64,000 bases of DNA from the NCBI RefSeq assembly GCF_011297335.1, contig NZ_JAAOTJ010000001.1, positions 372,001-436,000 on the forward strand. Reading direction: 5' to 3'. The translations under genes were made by a program, and so were the position numbers. Source of the stretch: Catellatospora methionotrophica (lineage in GTDB: Bacteria > Actinomycetota > Actinomycetes > Mycobacteriales > Micromonosporaceae). The notes below the pieces were generated by a model. It searched no databases and had not been told where the DNA came from. It was given only the letters and a program-made list of their open reading frames with translations. Positions 4,759-58,307 of this stretch are shown piece by piece (within the stretch, counting starts at the first letter, position 1; the number at the start of each line of letters is the position of its first letter).

Positions 4759-4840
4759 CCCCCACCCCCACCCCCATAGACGCTGGCCTATCACATCGAA
4801 TATTCGCTGATCGAACTCGATGTCATAGGCCAGCGTCTAT
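4759..4840. terminator. C-rich tract plus long hairpin after the VOC gene
   Basis: Three C5 runs separated by single A residues (4759-4775) lead straight into a long inverted repeat. The outer arms 4776-4791 and 4825-4840 pair over 16 bases without mismatch; after one mismatch, 4793-4799 and 4817-4823 pair over 7 more. The C-rich, G-poor run resembles a Rho-loading site and the hairpin a terminator. The same order (stop, C-rich tract, long hairpin) is seen after the MarR gene near 10.7 kb. It could also be a dispersed intergenic repeat. Confidence 0.6.
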
Positions 4841-27246: not shown

Positions 27247-28239
27247 TCAGCCTGCGCGGCGCAGGCGGGCGAGCATGCCGTCGAGGTCGCGTACGAACAT
27301 GTCGTGGCGGAAGACGTGCCCGCCGGGTCGTTCGTGCCACTCGTGCGGGATCCCGGCCTGGCCGAGCGCGGCGCGGAACTCCCGCTGCCCGGCCAGGACC
27401 TGGGTTTCGTTGGCGGTGTCGAACCAGTTGACCGGGTCCGGTGAGGTCCCGGCCACCAGGAAGATCCGCTTGTTGTGGTAGCTGGGAATGCGCTGCATCG
27501 GGTTGTCGGCGCTGACCCGGGCCTCGTTCCAGAACGGCGCGCCGTACACGGTGCCGCCGCCGAGGTCGAGCGCGGCGGAGGTGGCGTTGGCCCAGTGCAC
27601 GACCAGGCCGAAGTCGCGGCGCAGGCTGGCCGGGCCGGAGTGGGCGCTGACGGAGCAGAAGTGGCCGTAGTACTTGGCGGCGTACTTCAGGGCGCCGAAG
27701 CCGCCCATCGAGAAACCGGCCACGGCCCGGCCGTTGTACTCGGCGAAGGTGCGGAAGTTGGCCTCCACCCAGGGCAGCAGCTGGCCGATGTGGAAGGTCT
27801 CCCAATTGCGCGGCCCGGCCAGGGAGTTGACCGGGTTGCTGTACCAGCCGGTGGACGCGTCAGGCATGACGATGATCAGTTCGCGGCCCGCGGTGAGGTT
27901 GATGATGTTGTCCTGCAGGTGGAAGGTACGAAAGTCCGCTCCCCCGCCCCCGTGCAGCAGGTACAGCACCGGGTAGCGCCGGCCGCTGGTGTGGTAACCG
28001 TCGGGGAGCAGGATGTTGACCGCGGGGTCCCACTCGATCGCGTCGGTGGCGAAGCGGTAGTACTGCAGCCGCCCCCCGTTCTCGTTGCGGCCGACGATGC
28101 GCAGGCCGAAGCCGTCGCCCGCAGCGTGCGCGGGGGTTGCGCCGAGCAGGCCGGCGGCCGCGCCGGTGACGCCTGCGGCCGCGACGCCGGTGAGCAGCCG
28201 CCGACGGCTGACGGGGCGGGGCGGGATGTGCTGGTCCAT
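27247..28239 (-). CDS. Tat-exported esterase, esterase-D/antigen-85 superfamily
   Basis: A 330-residue alpha/beta hydrolase. The signal is of the twin-arginine type: VSRRRLLTGVAAAGVTGAAA, cleaved near AHA, so the enzyme folds before export. The mature part has YPVLYLLHGGGGADF (oxyanion region), the nucleophile elbow GFSMGGFGALKYA (S177), a late Asp, and the catalytic His in PGGHVFRHDMF. The family (PF00756) includes feruloyl and acetyl esterases and the mycolyltransferase antigen 85. Last gene of the GH172-GH183-esterase unit. In a locus aimed at mycobacterial arabinan, it could remove mycolate, succinate or acetate esters; that is inference. GGAGGAAAC precedes the ATG. Confidence 0.85.
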   Translation of the reverse strand: MDQHIPPRPVSRRRLLTGVAAAGVTGAAAGLLGATPAHAAGDGFGLRIVGRNENGGRLQYYRFATDAIEWDPAVNILLPDGYHTSGRRYPVLYLLHGGGGADFRTFHLQDNIINLTAGRELIIVMPDASTGWYSNPVNSLAGPRNWETFHIGQLLPWVEANFRTFAEYNGRAVAGFSMGGFGALKYAAKYYGHFCSVSAHSGPASLRRDFGLVVHWANATSAALDLGGGTVYGAPFWNEARVSADNPMQRIPSYHNKRIFLVAGTSPDPVNWFDTANETQVLAGQREFRAALGQAGIPHEWHERPGGHVFRHDMFVRDLDGMLARLRRAG

Positions 28240-28265
28240 GTTTCCTCCGGAGGGTCGGCCGGGGT

Positions 28266-29828
28266 TCAGGCGCGGGTGAGGGAGAAGTCGTCGAGCTGGA
28301 TCCAGATGTCGCCGTGGTCGGTCCAGACGCCGCCGAAGACCGTGACGGCGGTACGCGAGCCGCTGTTGAAGTTCACCGTGAAGCGCGTCCAGGCGCCGAC
28401 GGCCCGGAAGTTGGCTTCGGCGATGACCACGTCGTTGGTGCCGCGTACGCCGAAGAAGCCGTTGTCGCTGTTGGGTGAGGTGCGCAGGTATCCGCTGAGC
28501 TGGTAGTTGGTGTTCGCGGTGACGGCGACCGTCTGGTGCAGGTCGTGCCAGCCGCTGTTGTAGCGGGCGAACCCGTTGCGGACCCCGGTGTAGCCCCAGT
28601 AGCCCGCGTCGAGGCCGCAGTTGCCCTTGCAGGCCCAGAAGCCGCCGGTCCCGGTGCCGTTGAGCGCGCCGCGCTCGAAGCTGGGGTCGCCCATCAGGTT
28701 CGGGTCGACGATCTGCCCGGCCGTGTTGATCCGGATCTTCATCAGGTAGACGTTGTACGGGTCCCACTGCGACATCGCGAAGTAGATGTTGCCGCCGGAA
28801 CTCCACGGGTGGATGTAGCCGCCGTACAGGCCGGGGTAGTCGGCGGAGCTGACGGCGACCTGCGCGCCGCTCCACGGGCCGGTGGGGCTGGTCGCGGTGC
28901 GCAGGATGATGTCCTCGCCGGACAGGTACATCATGAGCCAGCGGCCGCTGTAGGCGTCGTAGCGCACGGACAGCTCGGCGGCGGGCGCGCCGACGATCGG
29001 GGTGGCGGCGGCGAGGTTGTTCGTCACCCAGGTGCTGCCGTTCCAGTACTGGTAGGCGCTCTGGGTCAGGATCTGCGCCTCGGGGACGCGGGCGAGCCGG
29101 ATGCTGCCGCCGCGGCCGCTGGGGGTGCCGAAGACGTAGAGGTAGCCGTCGCGGCGCTCGAAGGCGTGCATCTGGAACTGCTCGTTGAACGCCGGGTTGT
29201 TCCAGGTCGGGGTGTTCGTGGTGGACCAGGTGGTGCCGTTGTCGTCGGAGTAGGCGAGCTTGGCGTAGTTGGTGGTCCACTGGCCGGGCACGCCCCAGTG
29301 GCGCACCGACATGAACGACACGTACTGCCGGTTGCCGACGGCGATGCCCGCCGTCGGGATCTTGGTGACCTCGCCGGTGTTGTCGGGCTGGTGCAGGCCG
29401 GGCAGGATCTCGCGGGCGCGGCCGTTGGCGGCGGTGACGGCGCTGGCGAACGACATGCCGTCGGCGAGGTTGGAGTCGGTGGAGCGCAGCAGCACGTTGC
29501 TGCGCCAGTTCAGGTCGCCCGCGCCGAACGCGCCGCCGCCGGGGCCGATCCAGGCGTCGCCGAACGTGTCGCCGAACAGCGCCATCGTCTGCCCGGCGTT
29601 GTTGTCCCAGAGGATGCCGAGGTCGGTCGCCTTGAGGTTCCAGCGGCCGTAGGTGTTGTTCGGCGAGTTCGGGCCGGTGAGTTTCTGGACCAGGCTGGCC
29701 GGGGTGTGCGCGGGGCTGGCCGCGGCCGGTGTCGCGAGGACGAGGCCGGTGGCGGCGACGGTGCCGAGCGTCAGCGCGACGCCGGCGAGGAAACGCGGGA
29801 TGGATCTGAGCCCGTGGTGCCTGTGCAT
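28266..29828 (-). CDS. secreted GH183 (DUF4185) endo-D-arabinanase-type enzyme with C-terminal CBM-like domain
   Basis: A 520-residue secreted protein. A Sec signal ends around residue 38 (LATPAAASPA). The DUF4185 beta-propeller fills about 45-365: TDLGILWDNNAGQTMALFGD, TFGDAWIGPGGG, NWRSNVLLRSTDSN, FMSVRHWGVPGQW and AMSQWDPYNVYL. DUF4185 was renamed GH183 after members proved to cut the D-arabinan of mycobacterial arabinogalactan and lipoarabinomannan internally. Residues about 375-520 form a jelly-roll-like domain (DPSFERGALNGTGTGGFWAC, TVAVTANTNYQLSGYLRTSP) typical of carbohydrate-binding modules. It has a lipoprotein paralogue at 42602-43735. GGAGGAGC precedes the ATG. Activity on D-arabinan is inferred from family and context. 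Confidence 0.85.
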   Translation of the reverse strand: MHRHHGLRSIPRFLAGVALTLGTVAATGLVLATPAAASPAHTPASLVQKLTGPNSPNNTYGRWNLKATDLGILWDNNAGQTMALFGDTFGDAWIGPGGGAFGAGDLNWRSNVLLRSTDSNLADGMSFASAVTAANGRAREILPGLHQPDNTGEVTKIPTAGIAVGNRQYVSFMSVRHWGVPGQWTTNYAKLAYSDDNGTTWSTTNTPTWNNPAFNEQFQMHAFERRDGYLYVFGTPSGRGGSIRLARVPEAQILTQSAYQYWNGSTWVTNNLAAATPIVGAPAAELSVRYDAYSGRWLMMYLSGEDIILRTATSPTGPWSGAQVAVSSADYPGLYGGYIHPWSSGGNIYFAMSQWDPYNVYLMKIRINTAGQIVDPNLMGDPSFERGALNGTGTGGFWACKGNCGLDAGYWGYTGVRNGFARYNSGWHDLHQTVAVTANTNYQLSGYLRTSPNSDNGFFGVRGTNDVVIAEANFRAVGAWTRFTVNFNSGSRTAVTVFGGVWTDHGDIWIQLDDFSLTRA

Positions 29829-29856
29829 GTGCGGTGCTCCTCCCTGTCGCGGGCAG

Positions 29857-29882
29857 GGCGGGCCGCCGGGGTGCGGCCCGCC
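29857..29882 (-). terminator. hairpin between GH172 and GH183 genes
   Basis: A perfect 10-base G/C stem (29857-29866 with 29873-29882) and 6-base loop lie 23 bases after the GH172 stop and upstream of the GH183 ribosome site on the minus strand. It may reduce read-through between the cytoplasmic and secreted enzymes or protect transcript ends; it need not fully split the unit. Confidence 0.5.
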
Positions 29883-29904
29883 GTCCCGGTGAAACGTGGG
29901 CCGG

Positions 29905-31029
29905 TCAGTCCGGCAGGCGCGGCGGCTGGGCGCCGAGGTCGGGCACGGGGGCCGACCCTAGGTGGATCTCCAGGTCGTCGGCGCTGGGCGTACGCGGCCG
30001 ACGCGCGGTGGGCCGGTCGAGGTAGAACAGCGCGGTCGAGGCGATGTCGTCGCGCAGCGGCAGGTAGCGCCAGCCGGAGCGCCAGCCCAGGGCCTGGATG
30101 TCGACGCGCAGCCGCTGCGCGAAGTGGATCGGGTCGGGCAGGTGCCAGCGGTACATGCCGAAGCGCTGCTGGCTGACGTAGAGCCCGTCGGGGCGGATCA
30201 CCTGCGGCATGCCGAGGTACGGCGTGGAGTAGGCGGTGTAGCCCTTGCCGGGCACGTCGAAGTTCCACGCGCCGCCGAAGTAGTCCTCGGTGCCGGTGCC
30301 GCAGATCGTCGGGTAGTCCTCGTCGCCGTCGAGGTAGAACTTGATCTCGCCTTCGCCCCACCAGCCGTTGCTGTTGACGCCCCAGGCCAGGTAGGTGCCG
30401 ACGTAGTGGCCGCTGCCCTCGACGCCGTCGACGAGCACGTGGGTCTTCAGATACTCCAGCGGGTTGCTGCGCCGCCACTGGGCGTGCAGGTAGCCCTGGC
30501 CGGAGTAGTCGCCGCCGATCTCGTAGGTGATCTGGTAGTAGACGCGGACACTGACCGTGGACAGGTTCTCCACGGTCAGGCGCGCGCCGTCGGCGAAGGG
30601 CATCGGCCAGTAGGAGTTGAAGCCGCCGTGCGGGTTGGCGGCGATGACCTGCGAGTCGACCTGGGCGAACTCGCCCCAGCCGCTGCAGAAGAAGTCGCCG
30701 TAGGGCACCTCGATCGCGGGTTCGTCGCTGCCGTCCCAGTACGCCCGCAGCAGCAGGGTGCGCCAGTTGTCCTTGTGCGTGGTGATCCAGATGTGGGTGA
30801 TCCTGCCGGGTCCGGCGATGTTCGCGAGGTCGAAGGTCTGTCCGGCGGCGATGTCGACGCTGGGCGAGATCTTCCACCCCGGCCCGAGATCGCGGGCGCA
30901 TGCCGCACCGGTGCCCTCGGTCGCCCGGCCGCCGCCGCCTGCCGATCCGTCGAAGTTCTCCGGACTGATCGAGCGGGTCTGCACGGCCCGCAGCCGTGCG
31001 ATCGTACTGAGGTCCACGGTGACCAACAC
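29905..31029 (-). CDS. GH172 (DUF2961) exo-alpha-D-arabinofuranosidase-type enzyme
   Basis: A 374-residue jelly-roll enzyme without any signal peptide, so probably cytoplasmic. GH172 landmarks: the N-terminal SISPENFDGSAGGGG with GAARDLG-like sequence, GPGRITHIWITTHKDNWR, PYGDFFCSGWG, GGFNSYWPMPFADGARLTVE, and the paired catalytic-glutamate region WGEGEIKFYLDGD (E226/E228) and GTGTEDYFGGAW (E248). Characterised GH172 enzymes include alpha-D-arabinofuranosidases acting on mycobacterial arabinan and a difructose-anhydride enzyme. Here the arabinan role fits the neighbours. GAGGA lies before GTG 31029 and TTG 31026; either may start. A LacI-type operator lies about 50 bases upstream. Confidence 0.88.
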   Translation of the reverse strand: MLVTVDLSTIARLRAVQTRSISPENFDGSAGGGGRATEGTGAACARDLGPGWKISPSVDIAAGQTFDLANIAGPGRITHIWITTHKDNWRTLLLRAYWDGSDEPAIEVPYGDFFCSGWGEFAQVDSQVIAANPHGGFNSYWPMPFADGARLTVENLSTVSVRVYYQITYEIGGDYSGQGYLHAQWRRSNPLEYLKTHVLVDGVEGSGHYVGTYLAWGVNSNGWWGEGEIKFYLDGDEDYPTICGTGTEDYFGGAWNFDVPGKGYTAYSTPYLGMPQVIRPDGLYVSQQRFGMYRWHLPDPIHFAQRLRVDIQALGWRSGWRYLPLRDDIASTALFYLDRPTARRPRTPSADDLEIHLGSAPVPDLGAQPPRLPD

Positions 31030-31079
31030 TTTCCTCGAAGAATCGGGGCAGGCTCGACGGCGGGCAGAGGGCACCGCGT

Positions 31080-31091
31080 GCAATCGATTTC
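31080..31091 (-). promoter_or_regulatory. LacI operator upstream of GH172
   Basis: GCAATCGATTTC, one mismatch from the perfect palindrome GAAATCGATTTC found elsewhere in the locus. It lies 51 bases upstream of the GH172 start and about 105 bases upstream of the divergent lacI-type gene, so it could control both. Confidence 0.7.
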
Positions 31092-31195
31092 ATTAAGGTA
31101 GGGTGATGGGGCTGCCGTGTCAACGGGTCGCCGACGCCCCGAGCCCGGACCCCAGCTCCACCGGCGGGCAGCCGGCCGATCGATGAGGAAGCGCG

Positions 31196-32167
31196 ATGCC
31201 AACGATCTACGAGGTCGCCGCCGCGGCCGGGGTCTCCCCCGCCACCGTCTCGCGCGTGTTCAACGGCGCCAACGTGTCCCCCGAGAAGGCCGAGGCGGTG
31301 CGCAGGGCGGCCAAGGAGATGTCGTTCACCCCGAGCCGCACCGCGCGCACCCTGCGGCTGCAGAGCTCCGAGGTGATCGCCCTGGTCATCCCGGACATCG
31401 AGAACCCGTTCTTCACCGCGCTGGCGCGCGGCGTCGAGGACGTGGCGCGGGCCGCCGGATACTCGGTGGTGCTGTGCAACACCGACGAGGACCACGAGAA
31501 GGAGCTGCGCTACCTCGACATCGCGCTGAGCGCCACCATGGCCGGCGTGATCATCGCGGCGGCGGGCGGCAACAGCGACCTGAGCGGCCTGATCGCCCGC
31601 AAGTGCCCGGTCGTCGCGGTCGACCGCAGCCCGCACGGCGTGGACGTCGACGCGGTCATCGTCGACAACCGGGCGGGTGGCCGCGCGGCCACCCAGGCCC
31701 TGGTGGAGCAGGGTTTCCAGCGCATCGCCTGCATCACCGGCCCGAGCGACGTCGAGACCGCCACCCAGCGCGCCGACGGCTGGCGCGACGCCGTCACGGG
31801 CAACGGGACGACCGACGACCGCTACCTGCGCTTCGCCGACTTCCGCGTGGACGGCGGAGCGACGGCGATGAGTGAACTGCTGGCCCTGCCCGAGCCGCCG
31901 GACGCGGTGTTCGTGGCCAACAACCTGATGAGCGTCGGCGCCCTGCGGGTGCTGTCCGAGCAGGGCAAACTGCCCCCGGCCACCGGCGTGGCCGTCTTCG
32001 GCGACCTGCCGTTCCTGCCGCTGGTGCCGATCCCGATCACCGTGGTGCACATGCCCGCCCGGCATCTGGGCACCACCGCCGCGAAACTGCTGCTGGAGCG
32101 CATCAGCGGCGACGACCAGCCGGCCCGCACCATCGTGCTGCGCAACCAGCTGACCCCCGTCGGCTGA
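31196..32167 (+). CDS. LacI-family repressor of the D-arabinan locus
   Basis: A 323-residue regulator. The N-terminal headpiece is complete: TIYEVAAAAGVSPATVSRVF with the recognition helix, then the hinge helix SRTARTLRLQSS. The rest is a periplasmic-binding-protein fold (VIALVIPDIENPFFTALARG, VAVDRSPHGVDVDAVIVDNR, PDAVFVANNLMSVGALRVL) that binds a sugar inducer. It is slightly short at the C terminus compared with LacI. Placed between GH172 and the kinase; GAAATCGATTTC-type operators near four promoters in the locus make it the likely local repressor, with a D-arabinose or D-arabino-oligosaccharide derivative as inducer (inference). Confidence 0.9.
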   Translation: MPTIYEVAAAAGVSPATVSRVFNGANVSPEKAEAVRRAAKEMSFTPSRTARTLRLQSSEVIALVIPDIENPFFTALARGVEDVARAAGYSVVLCNTDEDHEKELRYLDIALSATMAGVIIAAAGGNSDLSGLIARKCPVVAVDRSPHGVDVDAVIVDNRAGGRAATQALVEQGFQRIACITGPSDVETATQRADGWRDAVTGNGTTDDRYLRFADFRVDGGATAMSELLALPEPPDAVFVANNLMSVGALRVLSEQGKLPPATGVAVFGDLPFLPLVPIPITVVHMPARHLGTTAAKLLLERISGDDQPARTIVLRNQLTPVG

Positions 32168-32200
32168 GGCCGCGCCGCACCGTCCCGGAGCCGCCGGTGC

Positions 32201-32235
32201 TTGACGGTGAAATCGATTTCTGACAGGGTACGGGC
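32201..32235 (+). promoter_or_regulatory. promoter with embedded LacI operator for the kinase-GH116-isomerase operon
   Basis: TTGACG (32201-32206) and CAGGGT (32224-32229) stand 17 bases apart as -35 and -10 boxes. The perfect palindrome GAAATCGATTTC (32209-32220) fills the spacer, so a bound repressor would exclude RNA polymerase. The expected transcript start falls at or next to the kinase ATG (32236), which predicts a leaderless mRNA; no ribosome site is seen there. Confidence 0.75.
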
Positions 32236-33735
32236 ATGTTGAGGCAAGCCTGTGTCCTCGGCGTCGACATCGGAACGTCGAGCAGCAAGGGCGTGCTCGT
32301 CGCGCTCGACGGCACGATCGTCGCCACCGCCACCCGTGAGCACGAGGTGCGGCGGCCCGCGCCGGGTCACGTCGAGATGGACGCCCACGTGTGGTGGGAC
32401 GAGGCCGCCGGGATCATCCGCGAACTGCTGGCCGCGCCCGAGGCCGGACCGGTCCGGGCGGTCGGGGTGAGCGGCATGGGCCCGTGCGTGCTGGTCACCG
32501 ACCTCGCGGGCGAGCCGCGCCGCCCCGCGATGCTGTATGGCATCGATACCAGGGCCACCGCGCAGATCGAGCGGCTGACCGGGGCGCTCGGCGGGGCCGA
32601 GGTCATCCGCGAGCGCTGCGGCTCGTCCCTGAGCACCCAGGCGGTCGGCCCGAAACTGGCCTGGCTGGCCGAACACGAGCCGCAGGCCGTCGCGGGCGAC
32701 TGGCGCCTGTTCCAGCCCAGCACCTGGCTCGGCTGGCACCTGACCGGCGCGTACTATCTGGACCACCACTCGGCCAGCCAGTGCACCCCGATGTACGACG
32801 CGGGCGCGCAGGGCTGGTACGGCCCGTGGGTCGGCGAGGTCGCCGCCGGGTTGCAGCTGCCGCCGCTGGTCTGGCCCGGCGACACCATCGGTGGTGTGAG
32901 CCCCGCGGCGGCCGCCGAAACCGGTCTCACGGCGGGCACGCCGGTGATCGCGGGCACGATCGACGCCTGGTCGGAGGCGATCAGCGTCGGCGCGTTCCGG
33001 GTCGGCGACCTGATGCTCATGTACGGCACCACGATGTTCCTCATCAACACCGTGGACCGGCCGCTGACCTCGCCCACACTGTGGGGCACGGTCGGCGCGC
33101 TGCCCGGCACCCGCAACCTCGCCGGGGGCATGGCCACCTCCGGCGCGATCACCGGCTGGCTGCGCGAACTGTTCGGCTCCCCCGGCTTCCCGGAGCTGCT
33201 GGAGCTGGCCGACGAGGCCGGGCCGGGCGCGCACGGGCTGCTCATGCTGCCGTACTTCGCCGGGGAGCGGACCCCGGTCGCCGATCCCGACGCGCGCGGC
33301 GTGCTCGCCGGGCTCACCGTGTCGCATACGCGCGGCGACCTGTACCGGGCGGCGCTGGAGGCGACGGCGTTCGGCGTACGGCACAACGTGGCCGCGATCG
33401 AGCAGGCGGGCGGGCACGTCGAGCGGATCGTCGCGGTCGGCGGCGGTGCGCAGGGCAGCCTGTGGACCCAGCTCGTGTCCGATGTGACCGGCCTGGCGCA
33501 GGCGATCCCCGCCCAGACCATCGGGGCCTCGTTCGGGGCGGCTTTCCTGGCCGCGTCGGCGGTCGGCGGCCCCGACATCGAGCAGTGGAATCCGATCGTC
33601 GAGACGCGGACGCCCCGGGCCACCGTCCGCGCCGACTATGACGAGCTGTACGCCCTGTACCTCGACCTGTATCCGGCCACGGTGCCGACCGTGCACGCCC
33701 TCGCCGCCCGCGAGCGGCACCGCGCCACCCGCTGA
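32236..33735 (+). CDS. FGGY-family pentulose kinase (probable D-ribulokinase/xylulokinase-like)
   Basis: A 499-residue sugar kinase of the actin-like fold. VLGVDIGTSSSKGVLVALDG is the N-terminal phosphate-binding loop; GTIDAWSEAISVG carries the likely catalytic base D243; RIVAVGGGAQGSLWTQLVSD is the C-terminal FGGY ATP-binding motif. The family phosphorylates ribulose, xylulose, fuculose or similar sugars. Next to an L-fucose/D-arabinose-type isomerase, the expected step is D-ribulose to D-ribulose 5-phosphate, entering the pentose phosphate pathway; xylulose would fit if the polyol dehydrogenase supplies it. First gene of an operon with GH116 and the isomerase, behind an operator-blocked promoter. 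Confidence 0.85.
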   Translation: MLRQACVLGVDIGTSSSKGVLVALDGTIVATATREHEVRRPAPGHVEMDAHVWWDEAAGIIRELLAAPEAGPVRAVGVSGMGPCVLVTDLAGEPRRPAMLYGIDTRATAQIERLTGALGGAEVIRERCGSSLSTQAVGPKLAWLAEHEPQAVAGDWRLFQPSTWLGWHLTGAYYLDHHSASQCTPMYDAGAQGWYGPWVGEVAAGLQLPPLVWPGDTIGGVSPAAAAETGLTAGTPVIAGTIDAWSEAISVGAFRVGDLMLMYGTTMFLINTVDRPLTSPTLWGTVGALPGTRNLAGGMATSGAITGWLRELFGSPGFPELLELADEAGPGAHGLLMLPYFAGERTPVADPDARGVLAGLTVSHTRGDLYRAALEATAFGVRHNVAAIEQAGGHVERIVAVGGGAQGSLWTQLVSDVTGLAQAIPAQTIGASFGAAFLAASAVGGPDIEQWNPIVETRTPRATVRADYDELYALYLDLYPATVPTVHALAARERHRATR

Positions 33736-33776
33736 CCCGCCAGCCCGTCGACCCCCGGACGGAGATGTGCCCCCTC

Positions 33777-37909: not shown

Positions 37910-37920
37910 CGGACTCCACG

Positions 37921-37957
37921 CGAAGGGCCGGTGACCTGCCAGGTCACCGGCCCTTCG
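37921..37957. terminator. bidirectional hairpin terminator in the middle of the locus
   Basis: A perfect 17-base stem (37921-37937 with 37941-37957) and 3-base loop between the convergent isomerase and polyol dehydrogenase genes. It separates the kinase operon from the transporter operon. Confidence 0.8.
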
Positions 37958-37965
37958 TGGTCGTC

Positions 37966-39357
37966 CTACAGGTCCGCGAGGGTCGCCTGCGCGCCACGCT
38001 GGATCAGCGAGTCCAGCGCCCAGCGGTACTCGGCGGTGAAGCGCGGGTCGTCGGCCAGGTCGCCGAACAGGTCACGCTGCCGGAGGAACGCCAGCGGCTC
38101 GGTGCGCTGGCGGGCCGCATGGGCCAGCACGCCGTCCCGCTGCCGGTCGACGACGTCGATCGGCTGCCCGTGCTCGTCGACGCCCTCGGCGTAACGGGCC
38201 CAGCTGGCGACGATCGCCGCCGACAGGCGCACCGGGCCGCCGGTGGCGAGCTGGTGCCGGACGACGGGCAGCAGCCAGGTGGGGATGCGGTCCGACGAGT
38301 CGGTGCACAGCCGGGCGATGGTGTCGCGTACGTGCGGGTTGGCGAACCGTTCGAGCAGGGTGTCCTTGTAGCGGTCGAGGTCGACGCCGGGCACGGGGTG
38401 CAGGGTCGGGGTGGCCTCGGTGTCCATGTAGCGGCGCAGCAGCCGCGCGATGAGCGGGTCCTGCGCCGCCTCGTGCACGAGTTCGTACCCGCTGAGCCGC
38501 CCGAAGTAGCACAGCCCCTGGTGGCTGGCGTTGAGCAGGCGCAGCTTCATCAGCTCGTACGGTTCGACGTCGGCGACGAGTTGCACGCCCGCGGCCTCGA
38601 ACGGCGGCCGCCCGGCCGGGAAGTGATCCTCGATCACCCACTGGAAGAACGGCTCGGCGACCACCGGCCACGCGTCGTCGACGCCGAACCGGGCCGTGAT
38701 CGCCGCCCGGTCCTCGTCGGTCGTCGCGGGCGTGATGCGGTCCACCATGCAGTTCGGGAACGCGACCTCGGCGGCGATCCACGCGCCGAGTTCAGCGTCC
38801 TTGCGGGTGGCGAAGGCCGTCAGCATCCGGCGGCAGACGTCGCCGTTGCCCTGGACGTTGTCGCAGGACAGGACGGTGAACGGGACCACGCCCCGGGAGC
38901 GGCGGCGGCGCAGCGCCTCGGTGATCAGGCCGAACGCGGTCTGCGGCACGGCGTCCGGTGCCAGGTCGGCGGCGATGCGCGGGTCGGTGGCGTCGAACTC
39001 GCCGGTGATCCGGTCGACGTGGTAGCCGCCCTCGGTGATGGTCAGCGACACGATGCGGACCTCCGGCGCGGCCATCTTCTCGATGACGGCTTCCGGGTCG
39101 TCGGGGGCGAACAGGTAGTCGACGATCGAGGCGATGCCACGCGCGGTCTGCTGCCCGTCGGGGTGCTTGAGCACCAGCGTGTAGCCGAACTCCTGGGCGT
39201 GCAGCACGTCGCGCATGCGCCGGTCGCCGGGCAGCACGCCGACACCGCAGATGCCCCAGTCCTCGGCCAGGCCCAGCACCCGCAGGTCGTCCAGGACCAT
39301 CGCCTGGTGCGCGCGGTGGAAGCCGCCGACGCCGATGTGCACGATGCCGGTGCTCAT
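37966..39357 (-). CDS. mannitol dehydrogenase family polyol/ketose oxidoreductase
   Basis: A 463-residue long-chain polyol dehydrogenase. It opens with IVHIGVGGFHRAHQAMVLDD, the NAD-binding motif of the family. The signature KLRLLNASH (K271, N276, H279; KxxxxNxxH) carries the catalytic lysine. VVPFTVLSCDNVQGNGDV and WVIEDHFPAGRPP are further family blocks. Members interconvert mannitol/fructose, D-arabinitol/D-xylulose or fructuronate/mannonate. With D-arabinan genes around it, D-arabinitol/D-xylulose or ribitol/D-ribulose interconversion is plausible. The ATG overlaps the permease stop (ATGA), so it is the last gene of the importer operon. Confidence 0.85.
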   Translation of the reverse strand: MSTGIVHIGVGGFHRAHQAMVLDDLRVLGLAEDWGICGVGVLPGDRRMRDVLHAQEFGYTLVLKHPDGQQTARGIASIVDYLFAPDDPEAVIEKMAAPEVRIVSLTITEGGYHVDRITGEFDATDPRIAADLAPDAVPQTAFGLITEALRRRRSRGVVPFTVLSCDNVQGNGDVCRRMLTAFATRKDAELGAWIAAEVAFPNCMVDRITPATTDEDRAAITARFGVDDAWPVVAEPFFQWVIEDHFPAGRPPFEAAGVQLVADVEPYELMKLRLLNASHQGLCYFGRLSGYELVHEAAQDPLIARLLRRYMDTEATPTLHPVPGVDLDRYKDTLLERFANPHVRDTIARLCTDSSDRIPTWLLPVVRHQLATGGPVRLSAAIVASWARYAEGVDEHGQPIDVVDRQRDGVLAHAARQRTEPLAFLRQRDLFGDLADDPRFTAEYRWALDSLIQRGAQATLADL

Positions 39358-40175
39358 TTGATGCCCGAGATGCGCACGCCGTTGACGATGAACCGCTGGA
39401 AGACCAGCAGCAGCCCGATCGTGGGGATCGACGCCAGCGTGGAACCGGCCATCAGCAGGCCCCAGTCGTTGCCGCGGTCGGACCGGAAGTTGCCCAGGAA
39501 CTGCATGATCTGGGTCAGGTCCGGGTCGGTGATCGTCAGCACCGGCCACACGTAGGCGTTCCAGTACGCCAGGTAGGAGGCGATGCCCATGACCACGAAC
39601 GGGGCCGCCGACTGCGGCAGGAACACCCGCGTGAAGATCTGCCAGCGGGTCGCGCCGTCGACCAGCGCCGCCTCCTCGACCGCCATCGGGAAGCCCAGGT
39701 AGAACTGCCGGATGAAGAACATCTGCGCGGCCGACGCGGAACCGGGGATGATCAGCACGGCGAGCGTGTCGAGCATGCCGAGCTCGGAGACCACCATGAA
39801 CGAGGTCAGCAGGATCGCCATCGCCGGGATGAACATCGGGGTCAGGCAGTAGACCCACCAGAAGCGCTTGCCGGTGAACTCCAGCCGGGCGAAGGCGTAC
39901 GCCGCCAGGGTGTTCACGGTCAGGCTCAGCGCGGTGAAGATGAGCGCGCCGACGACGGTGACGCCCATGGCCCGCATGAACTGCGGATCGGCCAGGATCG
40001 CGGAGTAGTTGTCCCAGCGCCACATCTGCGGGAAGAACTGGAACGGCGAGCGCAGCACCTCGGTCTTGCCCTTGAACCCGGCGATCGCCATCCAGGCGAG
40101 GGGGAACATCACGCTGACGCTGATCAGCGTCATGAGCACGGCGGAGAAGATCCGCTGGGGGACGGTCTTTTTCAT
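39354..40175 (-). CDS. carbohydrate ABC transporter permease (MalG-type, CUT1)
   Basis: A 273-residue inner-membrane permease with about six helices. The EAA loop that docks the ATPase is EEAALVDGATRWQIFTRVFL, followed by QSAAPFVVMGIASYLAYWNA, characteristic of MalG-type subunits. The short positively charged start (MKKTVPQRIFSAVLMTLI) is normal. No ATPase gene is in the operon; CUT1 systems in actinobacteria often share one MsiK-type ATPase encoded elsewhere. It pairs with the permease at 40192-41154. Confidence 0.92.
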   Translation of the reverse strand: MKKTVPQRIFSAVLMTLISVSVMFPLAWMAIAGFKGKTEVLRSPFQFFPQMWRWDNYSAILADPQFMRAMGVTVVGALIFTALSLTVNTLAAYAFARLEFTGKRFWWVYCLTPMFIPAMAILLTSFMVVSELGMLDTLAVLIIPGSASAAQMFFIRQFYLGFPMAVEEAALVDGATRWQIFTRVFLPQSAAPFVVMGIASYLAYWNAYVWPVLTITDPDLTQIMQFLGNFRSDRGNDWGLLMAGSTLASIPTIGLLLVFQRFIVNGVRISGIK

Positions 40176-40191
40176 GGTTACCCCTGCGCGT

Positions 40192-41154
40192 CTAGCCGTC
40201 GATGGCTTTGTCGGAGTTGACGAGCCTGAAGATCACCAGCGAGATCGCGCCGAGCACGGCGAACAGCATCAGCGACGCGGTGAGCGAGAAGCTGGTGGCG
40301 TACGGCGTCAGGTCGCGGAAGCTGGCGAAGATGTACAGGTTCGGCGTCATGGTCGCGTCGACCGGGCCGCCGTTCGTCATGATCAGTGGCAGTTCGAACA
40401 GCTGGATCGCCAGGGTGAAACCGGTGACCAGCAGGTACAGCAGCACGTTCTTCAGCAGCGGGATGGTGATCCGGAACAGCCGCTGGAAGAAGCCCGCCCC
40501 GTCGAGCTGCGCCGACTCGTAGTAGTTCTCCGGGATGTCGAGCAGTCCGGCCAGCAGGATGAGCGTGGTGACGCCGAAGCTGAGCCAGATGCCGGGCACC
40601 GCGATGGCGGGCAGCGCGTACGACGGGTCGTTGAGCCAGTTCACCGGGCCGTGGTTCAGCACGCCGAGCATCGCGTTGACGACGCCGTCGTCCTGGTACA
40701 TGAACACGAACAGCACCGAGGCGACCACCGTCGACACGACCGCGGGCAGGTAGACGGTGGTCTTCATGTACGACGCGGCGCGCCTGCTGAGCGTCTTGAT
40801 GAAACTGGCCAGCAGCAGCGCGATGACGATGCCGGTCGGCACGGTGAGCACCGCGTAGTAGAGGCCGACCCAGATCGACTCCCAGAAGCGCGGGCTCTCC
40901 AGCACGTACTGGTAGAAGTCGAGCCCGACGAACTCCGGCTCGGTGTAGAAGCTGATTTTGAAGGTGCTCAGGTACAGCGAGTAGACCAGTGGCCACATCA
41001 CGAAGACGGCCAGCAGCACCACCATCGGGGCGATCATCAGGTACGCGGTGCGGTTGTCCCGCCCGTGCCGGGCCGGGCGCCTGCGGCCGTGCGGCGGCGC
41101 GCCGTCCGGGGCCGGGTCCGCCGGCGCGGCGACCCGGGAGTCGAGAGCAGTCAA
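40192..41154 (-). CDS. carbohydrate ABC transporter permease (MalF-type, CUT1)
   Basis: A 320-residue permease. After a charged N-terminal stretch the first helix is LMIAPMVVLLAVFVMWPLVY, and the EAA loop appears as YYESAQLDGAGFFQRLFRIT (YxxAxxDGAxxxQxFxxI). About six helices. TTG at 41154 is taken as start because GAGGGG lies 7 bases before it; the frame is open further back without a better site. It follows the sugar-binding lipoprotein gene by 68 bases and is 16 bases upstream of its partner permease. Confidence 0.9.
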   Translation of the reverse strand: MTALDSRVAAPADPAPDGAPPHGRRRPARHGRDNRTAYLMIAPMVVLLAVFVMWPLVYSLYLSTFKISFYTEPEFVGLDFYQYVLESPRFWESIWVGLYYAVLTVPTGIVIALLLASFIKTLSRRAASYMKTTVYLPAVVSTVVASVLFVFMYQDDGVVNAMLGVLNHGPVNWLNDPSYALPAIAVPGIWLSFGVTTLILLAGLLDIPENYYESAQLDGAGFFQRLFRITIPLLKNVLLYLLVTGFTLAIQLFELPLIMTNGGPVDATMTPNLYIFASFRDLTPYATSFSLTASLMLFAVLGAISLVIFRLVNSDKAIDG

Positions 41155-41222
41155 CGTCGTTCCCCTCGAAGAGCGGTGCCCGGGACGCGGAGCGCGCTTC
41201 CCGGGCACCGGAGTCCGGCAGC

Positions 41223-42545
41223 TTACTTAGGCGCAGTCCCGGCCAGCGACTGCTTCTTGATGACGTCGTCGATCGCGGCCGCGGCCGTCTTCAGCGACGT
41301 CGGCACGTCGGCCTTGCCCTTCATCGCCGACTCGATCGCGGTGCCGAACGCCAGCGAGATGTCCCACGGGTACGCGGGCTCCTGCCTGCCGAACGGCACC
41401 ACCTTCTCCGAGATGACCTTCATGAACGGGTCGGAGGTCGCGTCGGGGTTGCTCGCCAGCGCCTGGTCGACCGAGGTGCGCACGGTGTACTTGGAGAACC
41501 CGCTGGTCTTGAAGAAGTCGGCCATCAGCGCCGGGTCCCCGGCCAGCAGGTACTTGACGAAGTCGGCGGCCTGCTGCTTGCCCTTGGACTTGGCGTCGAC
41601 GGTCAGCGTCCAGCCGCCCAGGGTGGCGGTGGTCTTGGTGGCGTCGCCGTCGAACGACGGGAACGCCGCGACGGCGGTCTTCGGGACCATCGCCTTGAAG
41701 TCGTTCTTGAGCTGGCCGATCACCCACGAGCCACCGGCCATCATGGCGACCTCGCCCTGCCCGTACGGCGCGCCGTCGGCGTAGCCGACCTTCGGCGTCT
41801 TGGGGATCAGGCCGCCCGAGTACAGCGTCTTGTAGAAGTCCAGCAGCTTCTCGAAGCACGGCTCGGTGGCCGTCGACTTGGACCAGTCGTCGTTGACCGG
41901 CAGCCGCCCGCAGGCGTTGTACTGCAGGCCCCAGCTGGACCAGCCGAGGTCCGGCCCGGCCGACGCGATGGTCATGCCCTTGACGTTGCCCTTGGTCAGC
42001 TTCGTCGCCCACTGCACCAGGTCGGCCCAGGTCTTCGGCGGGCTGTTCGGGTCCAGACCGGCGGCGGTCACCAGGTCGGTGCGGTAGTAGAGCACCGTCG
42101 AGGGCTCGACCAGCATCGGGTACGCGTAGTGCTTGCCGTTGACGGTGACGAAGCCCTTGACGTTGTCCTTGACGTCGGTGAACGCCTCGGCGGGCAGCAG
42201 TTCGTCGAGGGAGGCGAACTGGCCCTGCGCGACACCCGGCGCGACGTTGCCGTAGCTGGTCGTCGCGATGTCGGGGGCCTTGCCCGCGGCCTGCGCCGCC
42301 TTGAGCTTCTGCGCCCAGGTGTCGGCTGGGACGACCTGCAGGTCGATCTTCACCTTGTCCTGCGTGGCGTTGTACGCGTCGACGTGCTTCTTGAACCACG
42401 CCTGCTGGTAGTCCTCGAACTTCTGCTGCCAGAACGTGACCGTGGTCCTGCCTGCCGGGTCCTCACTGCCGCCACCGCATCCGCTGAGCGCGGTGGACGC
42501 GGTGACAGCTGCTATCGCGAGCAAAACTATGCCGCGTCTGCGCAT
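41223..42545 (-). CDS. ABC transporter sugar-binding lipoprotein
   Basis: A 440-residue family 1 extracellular solute-binding protein. The lipobox is ALSGC with C23 as the lipid-anchored residue after MRRRGIVLLAIAAVTASTAL. The mature chain begins with a strand typical of the family (TTVTFWQQKFEDYQQAWFKK) and contains YPMLVEPSTVLYYRTDLV and GEVAMMAGGSWVIGQLKNDF. It would capture oligosaccharides released outside by the GH183 enzymes and hand them to the two permeases; D-arabinan fragments are inferred from context. A very strong GGAGGAGGAG ribosome site precedes the ATG, as expected for an abundant receptor. Confidence 0.92.
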   Translation of the reverse strand: MRRRGIVLLAIAAVTASTALSGCGGGSEDPAGRTTVTFWQQKFEDYQQAWFKKHVDAYNATQDKVKIDLQVVPADTWAQKLKAAQAAGKAPDIATTSYGNVAPGVAQGQFASLDELLPAEAFTDVKDNVKGFVTVNGKHYAYPMLVEPSTVLYYRTDLVTAAGLDPNSPPKTWADLVQWATKLTKGNVKGMTIASAGPDLGWSSWGLQYNACGRLPVNDDWSKSTATEPCFEKLLDFYKTLYSGGLIPKTPKVGYADGAPYGQGEVAMMAGGSWVIGQLKNDFKAMVPKTAVAAFPSFDGDATKTTATLGGWTLTVDAKSKGKQQAADFVKYLLAGDPALMADFFKTSGFSKYTVRTSVDQALASNPDATSDPFMKVISEKVVPFGRQEPAYPWDISLAFGTAIESAMKGKADVPTSLKTAAAAIDDVIKKQSLAGTAPK

Positions 42546-42601
42546 TGCTCCTCCTCCTGCCGCACCCCGTGACCGGGGCGCAGTCCGTCATGATGCCTGC
42601 G

Positions 42602-43735
42602 TCAGGCTCTGCTGACCAGGTCGGCCCGATACCAGAAGACGTTGTACGGATCCCAGACCGAGAGAGTGAAATAGATGGTCCTGCCCCCGTCGGCGGTGTA
42701 CCGCGGGAGCATGTACGGCGAGTAGAGCCCCGGCACGGCTGCCGCCGAGACCAGGGTGATCGCGTCACCCCAAGGGCCCCAGGGCGTCAGGCCCTCGCGC
42801 AGGCTCGCGCCCGCGCCGCCGCCGTTGGTGTAGGACATCAGCCACCGGGACAGGTGCTCGTTCCACACCACGGACAGCTCGCCGACGGTGTCCTCGACGA
42901 TCGTGTGCGCCGCCGCCGGGTCGCTCGACCAGATCGGTGCGCCGTCGGACGCCGTACCGGCGAAGTAGCGGTACGCGTCGGCCGCCTCGACCTGCGCCGG
43001 GGCGACCTTCATCAGCCGCACGCCACCGAAGCGGCCGTGCGTGACGCCCCAGAAGTAGAGTTCCCCGTCGACCTGCGCGACGCTCACCTGAACGAAGTTG
43101 CCGTCGCCGGGCCAGATCGGTGCGGCGAGCTTGACCCAGGTCTGGCCGTGATCAACTGACTTGGCCAGGCCCGCGTGATTGACCTCCCACTCGCCCGGCT
43201 CGCCCCAGTGGCGGACGGACATGTAGGCCAGGTACATCGCACCGTTCGCGGCGAACCCGTACGTCGGGATCACCGTCATCTCGCTGTGGTCGACCTTCTC
43301 CGAGCCGAGCAGTTCCCTGGCCCGGCCCTGCTCGTCGACGACGAAGCCGTCGAAGACGATGCCGTCGGCCGGGTCGGTGTCGGTGGTGTGGGCCAGGGCG
43401 TTGGAACGCCACTCGTCCCCGCCGCCGCCGGTGAATCCCGGCTCCCGCCTGCCGAACGTGTCGCCGAAGACGAACCAGACCCTGCCGTCGGCCTCGAACA
43501 TCGACCCCAGGTCGGTGCCCGCGATGCCCACGCGGTCGGTGTGGTTGATCGAGTCCGGCCCGGTCAACTGCGCGACCCGCCGCACGCCGGACACACCCGC
43601 CAGCACGAAGGGACGATCCTGCGTCGGGTTCATCTGCCCTCCTCGGGTGGCGCAGCCGGCGGACGCGACCACGACGGCGAGGAACAACGCCGCCGTCCTG
43701 TCACGACGGCGGGGTTTCACGGGCGTTGCCGCCAT
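42602..43735 (-). CDS. lipoprotein GH183 (DUF4185) endo-D-arabinanase-type enzyme
   Basis: A 377-residue DUF4185/GH183 protein anchored to the membrane: lipobox ASAGC with C28. The propeller shows the blocks seen in the secreted paralogue at 28266-29828: TDLGSMFEADGRVWFVFGDT, FGRREPGFTGGGGDEWRSNA, YMSVRHWGEPGEWEVNHAGL, HGQTWVKLAAPIWPGDGN and LSVWDPYNVFWYRADLV. It lacks the C-terminal binding module. A cell-bound endo-enzyme next to the receptor would feed cut fragments straight to the importer. First gene of the operon GH183, receptor, two permeases, polyol dehydrogenase. GGAAGG precedes the ATG. Confidence 0.85.
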   Translation of the reverse strand: MAATPVKPRRRDRTAALFLAVVVASAGCATRGGQMNPTQDRPFVLAGVSGVRRVAQLTGPDSINHTDRVGIAGTDLGSMFEADGRVWFVFGDTFGRREPGFTGGGGDEWRSNALAHTTDTDPADGIVFDGFVVDEQGRARELLGSEKVDHSEMTVIPTYGFAANGAMYLAYMSVRHWGEPGEWEVNHAGLAKSVDHGQTWVKLAAPIWPGDGNFVQVSVAQVDGELYFWGVTHGRFGGVRLMKVAPAQVEAADAYRYFAGTASDGAPIWSSDPAAAHTIVEDTVGELSVVWNEHLSRWLMSYTNGGGAGASLREGLTPWGPWGDAITLVSAAAVPGLYSPYMLPRYTADGGRTIYFTLSVWDPYNVFWYRADLVSRA

Positions 43736-43770
43736 GTGTCCGCCTTCCCGTCGGGAGCAGGATGGCTAGC

Positions 43771-43799
43771 AGTGAACCCCAGGAAATCGGTTTCGTCAA
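43771..43799 (-). promoter_or_regulatory. promoter with LacI operator for the GH183-importer operon
   Basis: On the minus strand TTGACG (43799-43794) and TTCACT (43776-43771) stand 17 bases apart. GAAATCGGTTTC (43783-43794), one mismatch from the locus palindrome, overlaps the -35 box and the spacer. The arrangement matches the kinase promoter at 32201. Confidence 0.7.
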
Positions 43800-43851
43800 G
43801 AGCCCTCCAGACCCTGCGTAACTGACCTCGGAAAACCTTGCCCAACAGCGC

Positions 43852-43863
43852 GAAATCGATTTC
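43852..43863 (+). promoter_or_regulatory. LacI operator upstream of the DUF1349 gene
   Basis: A perfect GAAATCGATTTC palindrome, identical to that at 32209-32220. A TTGCCC (43838) and CAAGAT (43863) pair spaced by 19 bases could be the promoter around it. It lies 58 bases from the operator of the divergent GH183 operon. Confidence 0.7.
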
Positions 43864-43930
43864 AAGATCCGGCCTCGCCAGGAGATCTACGGGCGTGCGG
43901 CAACCCGGTTCGGCGGATACGCTCTGCGCC

Positions 43931-44500
43931 GTGCTGACGGGAATGTCGTGGCTCAACGAGCCGAGTGAGTGGTCGCTGACCGACGGGGTGCTGCGCGCCG
44001 TCACGGAGCTGCGGACGGACTTCTGGCGCAGGACGTTCTACGGGTGGACCACCGACGACGGGCACTTCTACCACCTGCCCGTGACCGGGGACTTCACCGC
44101 CGAGGTCGTCGTGTCCGCGACCCATACGACACGGTTCGACCAGGCGGGCATGATGGTCCGGGCCGACGAGCGCAACTGGCTCAAGACCGGCCTGGAAATC
44201 ACCTCGGGGGCGCTGCACGTCAGCACGGTCTACACGCGAGAGTTCTCCGACGTGTCGATGGCGACGATGCCCGGACACCCGGGCGAGGTCGCGATGCGAG
44301 TCACCCGGTTCGGCGAGGCCCTGACCGTGCACTGCCGCAGCACGGACGGCCCGTGGCAGCTGCTCCGGCTCGGCCACCTCGACCTGCCGGAGACCGTCGA
44401 CGTCGGCGTGATGTGCTGCTCGCCGGAGCGCGCCGGGCTGGCGGCCACCTTCCGCGACCTCCGGATCGGGCCGCCGATCTCCCGGGAGAACCTCGAATAG
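43931..44500 (+). CDS. DUF1349 beta-sandwich protein
   Basis: A 189-residue protein of the DUF1349 family, a concanavalin-like beta-sandwich. WSLTDGVLRAVTELRTDFWR, FTAEVVVSATHTTRFDQAGM, MVRADERNWLKTGLEITSGA and VDVGVMCCSPERAGLAATFR are the family blocks. It lacks an obvious signal peptide. Members are often found near sugar-utilisation genes and probably bind or modify carbohydrate, but activity is not established. The exact LacI operator upstream places it in the D-arabinan regulon. GTG 43931 or ATG 43943 may be the start; neither has a strong ribosome site. Confidence 0.75.
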   Translation: MLTGMSWLNEPSEWSLTDGVLRAVTELRTDFWRRTFYGWTTDDGHFYHLPVTGDFTAEVVVSATHTTRFDQAGMMVRADERNWLKTGLEITSGALHVSTVYTREFSDVSMATMPGHPGEVAMRVTRFGEALTVHCRSTDGPWQLLRLGHLDLPETVDVGVMCCSPERAGLAATFRDLRIGPPISRENLE

Positions 44501-49500: not shown

Positions 49501-49520
49501 CCGCGCCGCGCAGGTAGACG

Positions 49521-49553
49521 GGCGGGCCGCCCGGTGCCCCTGGGCGGCCCGCC
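49521..49553 (+). terminator. hairpin after the PL9 gene
   Basis: A 12-base G/C stem (49521-49532 with 49542-49553) and 9-base loop, 20 bases past the PL9 stop. Confidence 0.65.
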
Positions 49554-49612
49554 TCACCGCGCGACCCGTCCGGTCGCGCGTCATCCCCTCGGAATCGACG
49601 GAGGTTCCACCT

Positions 49613-58083: not shown

Positions 58084-58307
58084 GACCGGTCCGCCACCAT
58101 CCTGGTGATCGCGTCGAGGGTGTCCGCCCCGGATCCGAGGTCGATCTCGACGCCGAACTCCAGGTCGATGGCGTCGATGAGCCGCAGCGCGCCGAGCGAG
58201 TCCAGCCCCAGGGCGCGCAGCGAGCCGCCGCTGAGCGCCTGTCCGGCGGTGACCGCCCCGCCGGTGACGTCCTGCACGAGTGCGGCCATCCGCTGGTCCA
58301 GGTTCAC
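58080..58307 (-). CDS. free-standing acyl/peptidyl carrier protein
   Basis: A 75-residue carrier protein. LGLDSLGALRLIDAIDLEFG contains the phosphopantetheine site (Ser37 in GLDSLG), which a Sfp-type transferase would modify. The acidic helix 2 (DAIDLEFGVEIDL) is typical. Coupled to both neighbours by 4-base overlaps (GTGA upstream, ATGA downstream), so it is produced together with the NRPS and the condensation protein, and probably carries the unit the condensation protein uses. Confidence 0.9.
   Translation of the reverse strand: MNLDQRMAALVQDVTGGAVTAGQALSGGSLRALGLDSLGALRLIDAIDLEFGVEIDLGSGADTLDAITRMVADRS

Follow-up and report, generated by a model that had tools for sequence, protein, structure and literature searches.

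What does Catellatospora methionotrophica do with a block of genes for glycoside hydrolases, a sugar importer and pentose catabolism, and where does its substrate come from? The block lies at 27247-43735 of the window, by which we mean the whole 64,000-nucleotide stretch analysed here (assembly GCF_011297335.1, contig NZ_JAAOTJ010000001.1, positions 372,001 to 436,000). Judging from its sequence, we are confident that the block is a D-arabinan utilisation locus of the kind known from Microbacterium arabinogalactanolyticum. Degradation, uptake and D-arabinose catabolism of a foreign polymer would then be joined under LacI operators.

The D-arabinan function is well supported because three of the hydrolases are full-length orthologues of crystallised enzymes, with key residues kept, and because of the fold of the isomerase. 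The assignment to this kind of locus is favoured because the enzyme and importer set is largely common to 14 named loci, a type whose Microbacterium member responds to D-arabinose and wall extract. The gene set of a Gram-positive D-arabinan polysaccharide utilisation locus (PUL) is found here in one cluster: an endo-acting enzyme of glycoside hydrolase family 183 (GH183), a GH172, a GH116, an importer, an isomerase and a kinase.

Organisation of the block

The genes form three transcription units. GH172, GH183a and EST run leftward from 31083, LacI, FGGY, GH116 and ISO run rightward from 31196, and GH183b, SBP, TMD1, TMD2 and MDH run leftward from 43735. The features are as follows.

27247-28239, minus strand: EST, predicted exported PF00756 esterase, CE1-like alpha/beta hydrolase (Pfam 158.6 bits)
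28266-29828, minus strand: GH183a/DUF4185, predicted secreted endo-alpha-D-arabinanase, EndoMA1-like (Pfam 393.7 bits; PDB 8hhv 613 bits)
29905-31083, minus strand: GH172/DUF2961, predicted cytoplasmic exo-alpha-D-arabinofuranosidase, ExoMA1-like (Pfam 296 bits; PDB 8ic8 755 bits)
31080-31091: candidate operator GCAATCGATTTC with one mismatch, within the promoter region from which GH172 and LacI diverge
31196-32167, plus strand: LacI-family regulator (Pfam LacI and Peripla_BP)
32209-32220: candidate operator matching GAAATCGATTTC exactly, in the gap between LacI and FGGY, 15 bp ahead of the kinase start
32236-33735, plus strand: FGGY pentulose kinase, probably a D-ribulokinase (Pfam FGGY)
33765-36275, plus strand: GH116, predicted cytoplasmic exo-beta-D-arabinofuranosidase, ExoMA2-like (PDB 8ic6 909 bits)
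36272-37909, plus strand: ISO, divergent ketol isomerase of the L-fucose/D-arabinose type (fold of an AlphaFold2 model, by Foldseek)
37966-39357, minus strand: MDH, polyol dehydrogenase of the mannitol dehydrogenase family (PF01232 and PF08125)
39354-40175, minus strand: TMD2, CUT1-type permease (BPD_transp_1)
40192-41208, minus strand: TMD1, CUT1-type permease (BPD_transp_1)
41223-42545, minus strand: SBP, sugar-binding lipoprotein of the importer (PF13416/PF01547)
42602-43735, minus strand: GH183b/DUF4185, predicted second exported endo-D-arabinanase with a lipoprotein-like N-terminus (Pfam 308.6 bits; PDB 8hhv 180 bits)
43783-43794: candidate operator GAAATCGGTTTC with one mismatch, about 50 bp upstream of GH183b
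43852-43863: candidate operator, exact GAAATCGATTTC, about 115 bp upstream of GH183b

The original prediction, made from the letters alone, had named two DUF4185 proteins, a DUF2961 protein, a GH116, a LacI regulator, an FGGY kinase, an isomerase, a dehydrogenase, an esterase and a CUT1 importer. The list of open reading frames and Pfam searches place every one of them within 27247-43735. The hydrolases had been assigned to families active on D-arabinan, which agrees with their Pfam matches and with PDB alignments closest to EndoMA1, ExoMA1 and ExoMA2. Import and D-arabinose catabolism do stand beside degradation, with the isomerase recognised by fold and the kinase and importer by Pfam. The proposed single regulator is probably right too, given an operator shared by three promoter regions. 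The claim of a complete locus at 27247-44500 survives in part: the DUF1349 gene at 43838-44500 falls outside the block, and no ATPase gene for the importer was found among the block genes.

We rejected the DUF1349 gene as a member of the locus. It is a bystander because it was not found in the 20 kb beside the locus in one congener (G005) and is retained in another (G004), which has lost most of the locus. A long frame at 37957-39555 on the plus strand was also rejected; it has no Pfam match, and the real gene is MDH on the opposite strand.

MDH is tied closely to the importer genes, since its start and the stop of TMD2 share 4 bp (ATGA), and EST sits 26 bp behind GH183a. The listed TTG start of GH172 is probably too early, and the operator at 31080 overlaps it. 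On inspection of the N-termini by eye alone, GH183a carries a signal peptide, EST a twin-arginine-like signal (SRRRLLTG) and GH183b a lipoprotein-like start; GH172 and GH116 show none. The block is not a chance assembly because 4 of the 11 genomes of the genus hold it in synteny (its own, G000, and G003, G005 and G010) and because the ratio of nonsynonymous to synonymous substitution rates (dN/dS) is 0.12-0.26 across the six block genes compared.

Hydrolases that would cut D-arabinan

We compared the hydrolases with the PDB by phmmer, taking the crystallised EndoMA1, ExoMA1 and ExoMA2 of M. arabinogalactanolyticum as references. In EndoMA1, a GH183, D33 is described as the nucleophile and D51 as the acid/base, with E243 as a further residue (PMC10509167). 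GH183a aligns with EndoMA1 (8hhv) over residues 40-519 at 613 bits, the putative C-terminal binding domain included. GH183b matches the catalytic domain only, at 180 bits, and lacks the C-terminal binding domain. Both keep the counterparts of D33, D51, E243 and R198 in the 8hhv alignment.

The exo-acting enzymes also match their references. GH172 matches ExoMA1 (8ic8) at 755 bits and keeps N253, a residue reported to go with a preference for D-arabinofuranose (D-Araf) over D-fructofuranose (D-Fruf), glycine at this site going with D-Fruf (PMC10509167). GH116 matches ExoMA2 (8ic6) at 909 bits over residues 12-830; the 14 other sequences matched reach at most 89 bits. It keeps the ExoMA2 nucleophile E431 as well as H446 and R483, residues expected of an exo-beta-D-arabinofuranosidase of GH116 subfamily 4, positions counted by hand with an offset that fits E431 and H446. 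It is thus well supported by these alignments that GH183a, GH172 and GH116 are full-length relatives of EndoMA1, ExoMA1 and ExoMA2.

Seven congeners (G001, G003 and G006-G010; loci L111-L114 and L116-L119) have another GH183 gene, whose product shares about 37-54% identity with GH183a. In L112 and L113 it is accompanied by a LacI gene 48% identical to that of the block, and the G006 copy is broken by a stop codon.

Uptake and D-arabinose catabolism

The SBP of the importer is 71-73% identical to its counterparts in L013 and, in part, L007, both of them D-arabinan loci from Micrococcales.

The isomerase is harder to recognise. By sequence, ISO has Pfam matches only below the cut-off and no meaningful PDB match, and it is 64-77% identical across the 9 relatives aligned. 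We built an AlphaFold2 (AF2) model on 10 aligned sequences (predicted local distance difference test score, pLDDT, 69.8). In Foldseek the model gives 41 matches at E≤0.001, all of them L-fucose/D-arabinose or L-arabinose isomerases, among them 6k1f (E 3e-15) and the D-arabinose isomerase 3a9r (E 4e-15). Whole-chain superposition is poor (template modelling score 0.45, root-mean-square deviation 18). The modelled ISO has the fold of the fucose/D-arabinose isomerase family, and we infer that it converts D-arabinose to D-ribulose.

The kinase belongs to the FGGY family by Pfam. Its role as a D-ribulokinase is suggested because of the pathway context; no curated pentulose-kinase model passed, XylB scoring best with 287 bits against the 380 needed and the ribulokinase model PRK04123 134 against 428.

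A palindrome shared by the promoter regions

The palindrome GAAATCGATTTC occurs in the GH172/LacI, LacI/FGGY and GH183b promoter regions, at four sites (31080, 32209, 43783 and 43852). With up to two mismatches, we find 7 sites in the window where 0.21 are expected, and 100 shuffles never give more than 2. Four of the 7 lie in these three promoter regions; the remaining sites are at 4813, 35334 and 62753.

The same palindrome recurs in related loci. Our named comparison set consists of the best 80 of 587 GH172 relatives, and 17 of the 80 loci have a strong GH183, that is, a match of at least 330 bits. At least one exact copy is present in each of 14 of these 17 (L004-L015, L028 and L037, all actinobacterial), with 30 copies in 287 kb, and the LacI proteins of the 14 are 62-67% identical to the block LacI. 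A further 12 exact copies, in 12 loci, fall among the other three and the 63 named loci in which no strong GH183 is present. As a control, the pattern in reverse gives no copy in any of the 80 named loci. The 16 stretches taken from the genus and family contain 34 sites when up to one mismatch is allowed, compared to none for the control. The DNA-binding helix of LacI is conserved with its orthologues.

That one LacI regulator governs the block is supported because GAAATCGATTTC is common to three block promoter regions and to 14 of the 17 GH183-bearing named loci. It probably does so through this shared operator.

Two further ideas about the operator were dropped. A -35-like TTGAC seemed to stand beside 2 of the 4 block sites by eye, but in the 14 named loci just 3 of the 52 sites have it (background 0.9% of random places). 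A wider regulon with a clear D-arabinan link was not found at the sites outside the block in the own genome, as far as the 6 of 10 sites with genes listed go, 3 of them scanned with Pfam. Among the scanned ones, an exact site precedes an oxidoreductase gene, one lies between importer and LacI genes, and one is about 1.7 kb from a second GH172 gene.

How the locus may work

Taken together, the genes suggest the following route. The two exported GH183s would cut the D-arabinan of arabinogalactan (AG) and lipoarabinomannan (LAM) from other bacteria into oligosaccharides, and EST probably strips acyl groups from the polymer. SBP, TMD1 and TMD2 would take up the oligosaccharides, presumably powered by an ATPase encoded elsewhere. 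In the cytoplasm, GH172 and GH116 would remove alpha- and beta-D-Araf, the isomerase would yield D-ribulose and the kinase D-ribulose 5-phosphate, while MDH may handle a polyol. LacI is likely to repress all three units via the GAAATCGATTTC operators until released by D-arabinose or a derivative.

Host, wall polymer and origin of the locus

We used rpoB to place the host because a 16S search of its genome gave no match. Among 15 genomes compared, rpoB groups it with Actinocatenispora (88.4% identity, support 100/100). From this position we take the host family to be, probably, Micromonosporaceae.

No known domain for arabinan polymerisation turned up in the host. In its genome, we found no match to the Emb domain PF14896, and the Emb arabinosyltransferase domain PF04602 is found in none of 11 genus genomes and in 2 of 250 family genomes; the Corynebacterium glutamicum control is positive for both. 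The food is likely a foreign bacterial wall, mycobacterial or corynebacterial, because Emb-type arabinosyltransferase domains were not found in the host. Predation, as against scavenging, is unproven.

The spread of the locus is patchy. What G004 retains is LacI, FGGY and remnants of GH172 and GH183a, still framed by the flanking genes found elsewhere, and we read this as a natural loss of the locus. Presence in 4 of 11 genus genomes and decay in G004 are as expected of a nutritional trait. In the family, GH172 is found at E≤1e-60 in 22 of 250 genomes, and in 11 of them, over 8 genera, it is at least 85% identical. Lateral transfer of the block GH172 is likely because its identities disagree with those of rpoB. 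Against Microbacterium psychrotolerans, GH172 reaches 85% identity but rpoB only 73%; Actinocatenispora rupis has 88% for rpoB but 66% for GH172.

The own genome and the window hold some further features outside the locus. A second protein with a GH172 domain (contig C6, L120:4354-7629) is 1091 aa long, carries FG-GAP repeats and adjoins an M23 peptidase that has FG-GAP repeats as well. At 47923-50860 of the window, a beta-helix protein with CBM6/CBM35-type matches (Pel9A-like) stands beside a GDSL esterase; the pair is near the locus in G003 and G010, and the beta-helix gene alone was noted in G005. The window also encodes a single 1816-aa biotin carboxylase/carboxyltransferase fusion (5158-10608) and a non-ribosomal peptide synthetase module (58304-61174).

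The exported esterase and the polyol dehydrogenase

EST has a GFSMGGFG serine elbow. Among solved structures, the one closest to it in sequence is a ferulic acid esterase (70.1 bits); the mycolyltransferases (Ag85/Cmt) are not its nearest group, Cmt1 scoring 38.8 bits. An AF2 model without alignment had a pLDDT of 32.6 and was not used. EST has a dN/dS of 0.12-0.17 and is in place in all 4 syntenic genus loci. MDH matches mannitol 2-dehydrogenase 7rk4 at 448 bits and falls short of the D-arabinitol 4-dehydrogenase (DalD) model NF043014, with 362 bits against 600.

Across the family, 25 of the 250 genomes, from 10 of the 44 genera, have EST at E≤1e-60. It lies on the same stretch as D-arabinan genes in 8 of the 25 (G000, G003, G005, G010, G026, G140, G063 and G102). 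Two more have an operator upstream of EST without an adjoining cluster: in G041 the cluster is on another contig, and G089 has no GH172 match. One (G241) has ISO, LacI and operators nearby, and 4 (G233, G179, G229 and G217) have nearby only a GH183-like gene of 35-37% identity. No D-arabinan genes were seen near EST in 7, among them G144 and G223, where one side ends at a contig end. Linkage was not judged in 3 (G118 at a contig start, G115, and G006, a fragment).

MDH keeps its place as well. The importer is in view in 8 of 11 close family loci (the genus four, G066, G193, G045 and G042), with MDH behind TMD2 in 7 of them. In the named comparison set the picture differs. At E 1e-8 and within the stretches compared, no homologue of EST or DUF1349 is found in any of the 80, and an MDH homologue in one (L063), distant at 27% identity. 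EST and MDH are recurrent accessory enzymes in close loci of the host's family.

A second, divergent type of D-arabinan cluster is seen in G063 (L228 with L212) and G102 (L229 with L213). It combines a LacI of 48-49% identity, a GH183, a GH172 of 36%, an importer and a GH116-type gene with an esterase that shares 43-49% identity with EST. These clusters have operators, one just upstream of the esterase.

Alternative explanations

Several observations weigh against a D-arabinan locus under its own regulator. Many LacI proteins bind similar palindromes, and 14 sites with at most one mismatch occur in the own genome, only 4 of them in the block. The three Bacillota loci with GH183 and GH172 (L050, L054 and L075; LacI 30-33% identical) have no exact site and two one-mismatch sites between them. 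In GH116, the aligned aspartate of NTYDIEF is kept, but a hand count puts the acid/base one residue off the published D557. No ATPase gene for the importer was found within the block. The best equivalog of the kinase is a xylulokinase, below the cut-off, so that its substrate is not fixed. Could the locus serve another glycan with D-Araf or D-Fruf, such as a fructan anhydride or a D-arabinose-bearing lipopolysaccharide (LPS) or pilin glycan? The GH172 family is described as including D-fructofuranosidases (PMC10509167), and D-Araf is reported from Pseudomonas PA7 pili and some LPS (PMC10115798). We consider this improbable: N253 is kept, the similarity to ExoMA1, ExoMA2 and EndoMA1 runs over the full length, and an exo-enzyme for beta-Araf suits the non-reducing ends of AG and LAM. 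Recycling of the host's own wall arabinose is similarly improbable. Chemotaxonomy speaks for it, in that members of the family have arabinose in whole-cell hydrolysates. GH183 enzymes are also noted in mycobacteria, which make arabinan themselves (PMC10115798, PMC10509167). However, the own genome has no match to the two known Emb-type domains covered, the block is present in a minority of the genus and decayed in G004, and it ends in catabolism rather than re-use. A locus for feeding on the D-arabinan of other bacteria remains the reading we prefer.

For EST and MDH the balance is less one-sided. They may be mere neighbours with unrelated jobs, a general acyl esterase and an enzyme for mannitol or arabinitol use, which we regard as quite possible though not the favoured outcome. 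In five genomes with EST orthologues (G061, G105, G029, G108 and G038), the roughly 20 kb flanking EST on each side contain no D-arabinan gene, and 5 of 11 genomes with a close GH172 have no EST match at E 1e-60. MDH is not seen in G042, which does show the importer; G084, G026 and G140 show neither importer nor MDH. On the other side, EST co-occurs with close GH172: it is present in 6 of 11 such genomes versus 19 of 239 others (p=0.0002, too small a value since the genomes are related) and, by genus, in 5 of 8 versus 5 of 36 (p=0.009). When 18 EST loci were scanned for operators with at most one mismatch, 5 had such sites upstream of the esterase (L203, L204, L208, L212 and L213; L181 partly scanned); the scan did not include the genus loci, where EST lies behind GH183a. 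MDH overlaps the importer operon here and keeps this position in most close loci. A bolder proposal, which we offer as speculative and rather unlikely, makes EST a de-acylating partner that strips succinyl, mycolyl or other acyl esters from AG so that the GH183s reach the native wall. EST would belong to the GAAATCGATTTC/LacI regulon even away from the main cluster, as G041 suggests, and its carriers would live on intact mycolate-bearing neighbours. De-acylation is proposed because succinate is noted on mycobacterial AG (PMC10115798).

Comparison with known systems

The original prediction took a locus joining degradation, uptake and catabolism to be undescribed. In fact, Shimokawa et al. (2023; PMC10509167) report in their main text an M. 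arabinogalactanolyticum locus with GH183, GH172, GH116, an importer and a putative isomerase and kinase, induced by D-arabinose and mycobacterial wall extract. They propose a route to D-ribulose 5-phosphate via import, isomerase and kinase and mention related actinobacterial clusters. The present locus shares this gene set, with an SBP_bac_8-type importer, and the proposed route, as well as secreted endo-enzymes and cytoplasmic exo-enzymes. It differs in having two GH183s instead of four and in the added exported esterase and polyol dehydrogenase. The words regulator, operator, esterase and dehydrogenase are absent from the main text of that paper, whose figures may draw a regulator gene. A Bacteroidota counterpart, PUL42 of Dysgonomonas gadei, is described in the text of Al-Jourani et al. 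(2023; PMC10115798). It likewise has GH183, GH172 and an abundant predicted fucose isomerase, and a putative GH116 is noted by PMC10509167. In contrast to our locus, it has three GH172s, and the words esterase and regulator are absent from the main text of PMC10115798. Our literature search gave no further paper on such a locus among the matches listed, figures and supplements being outside its scope.

What follows from such a locus in another organism? It extends the published system for mycobacterial-wall arabinan to another actinomycete family, and a concrete operator sequence, GAAATCGATTTC, lets the regulon be sought in other genomes. EST and MDH may complete the breakdown of native, acylated AG. 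Enzymes that cut D-arabinan are tools for the study of mycobacterial walls, and a matching de-acylase would be useful.

Close relatives are the 14 named loci with a strong GH183 and an exact operator, which come from Microbacterium, Agromyces, Sanguibacter, Promicromonospora, Cryobacterium and Rhodoglobus. They share GH183, GH172 (73-84% identical), LacI and operator with our locus and mostly also FGGY, GH116, ISO and the importer, but no homologue of EST, MDH or DUF1349 is found within the stretches compared. Beside Microbacterium D-arabinan loci we noted an SMP-30/gluconolactonase-like gene (L006:11146-12081) and a 7-bladed lactonase gene (L010:11898-12926), which hint at an oxidative side route for D-arabinose. 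Streptomyces loci with GH172, LacI, FGGY and ISO (such as L033, L038 and L065) are similar in ISO (76-77%), FGGY (63-65%) and LacI (57-58%), with one exact operator each. They differ in lacking a GH116 match and in permeases of only about 33% identity; their GH183 matches reach no more than 27-28% in L033 and L038, and L065 has none. It is well supported that our locus is of the published kind, in another actinomycete family. Compared to the main texts of the published work, it adds a shared operator with a putative regulon, an exported esterase and a polyol dehydrogenase.

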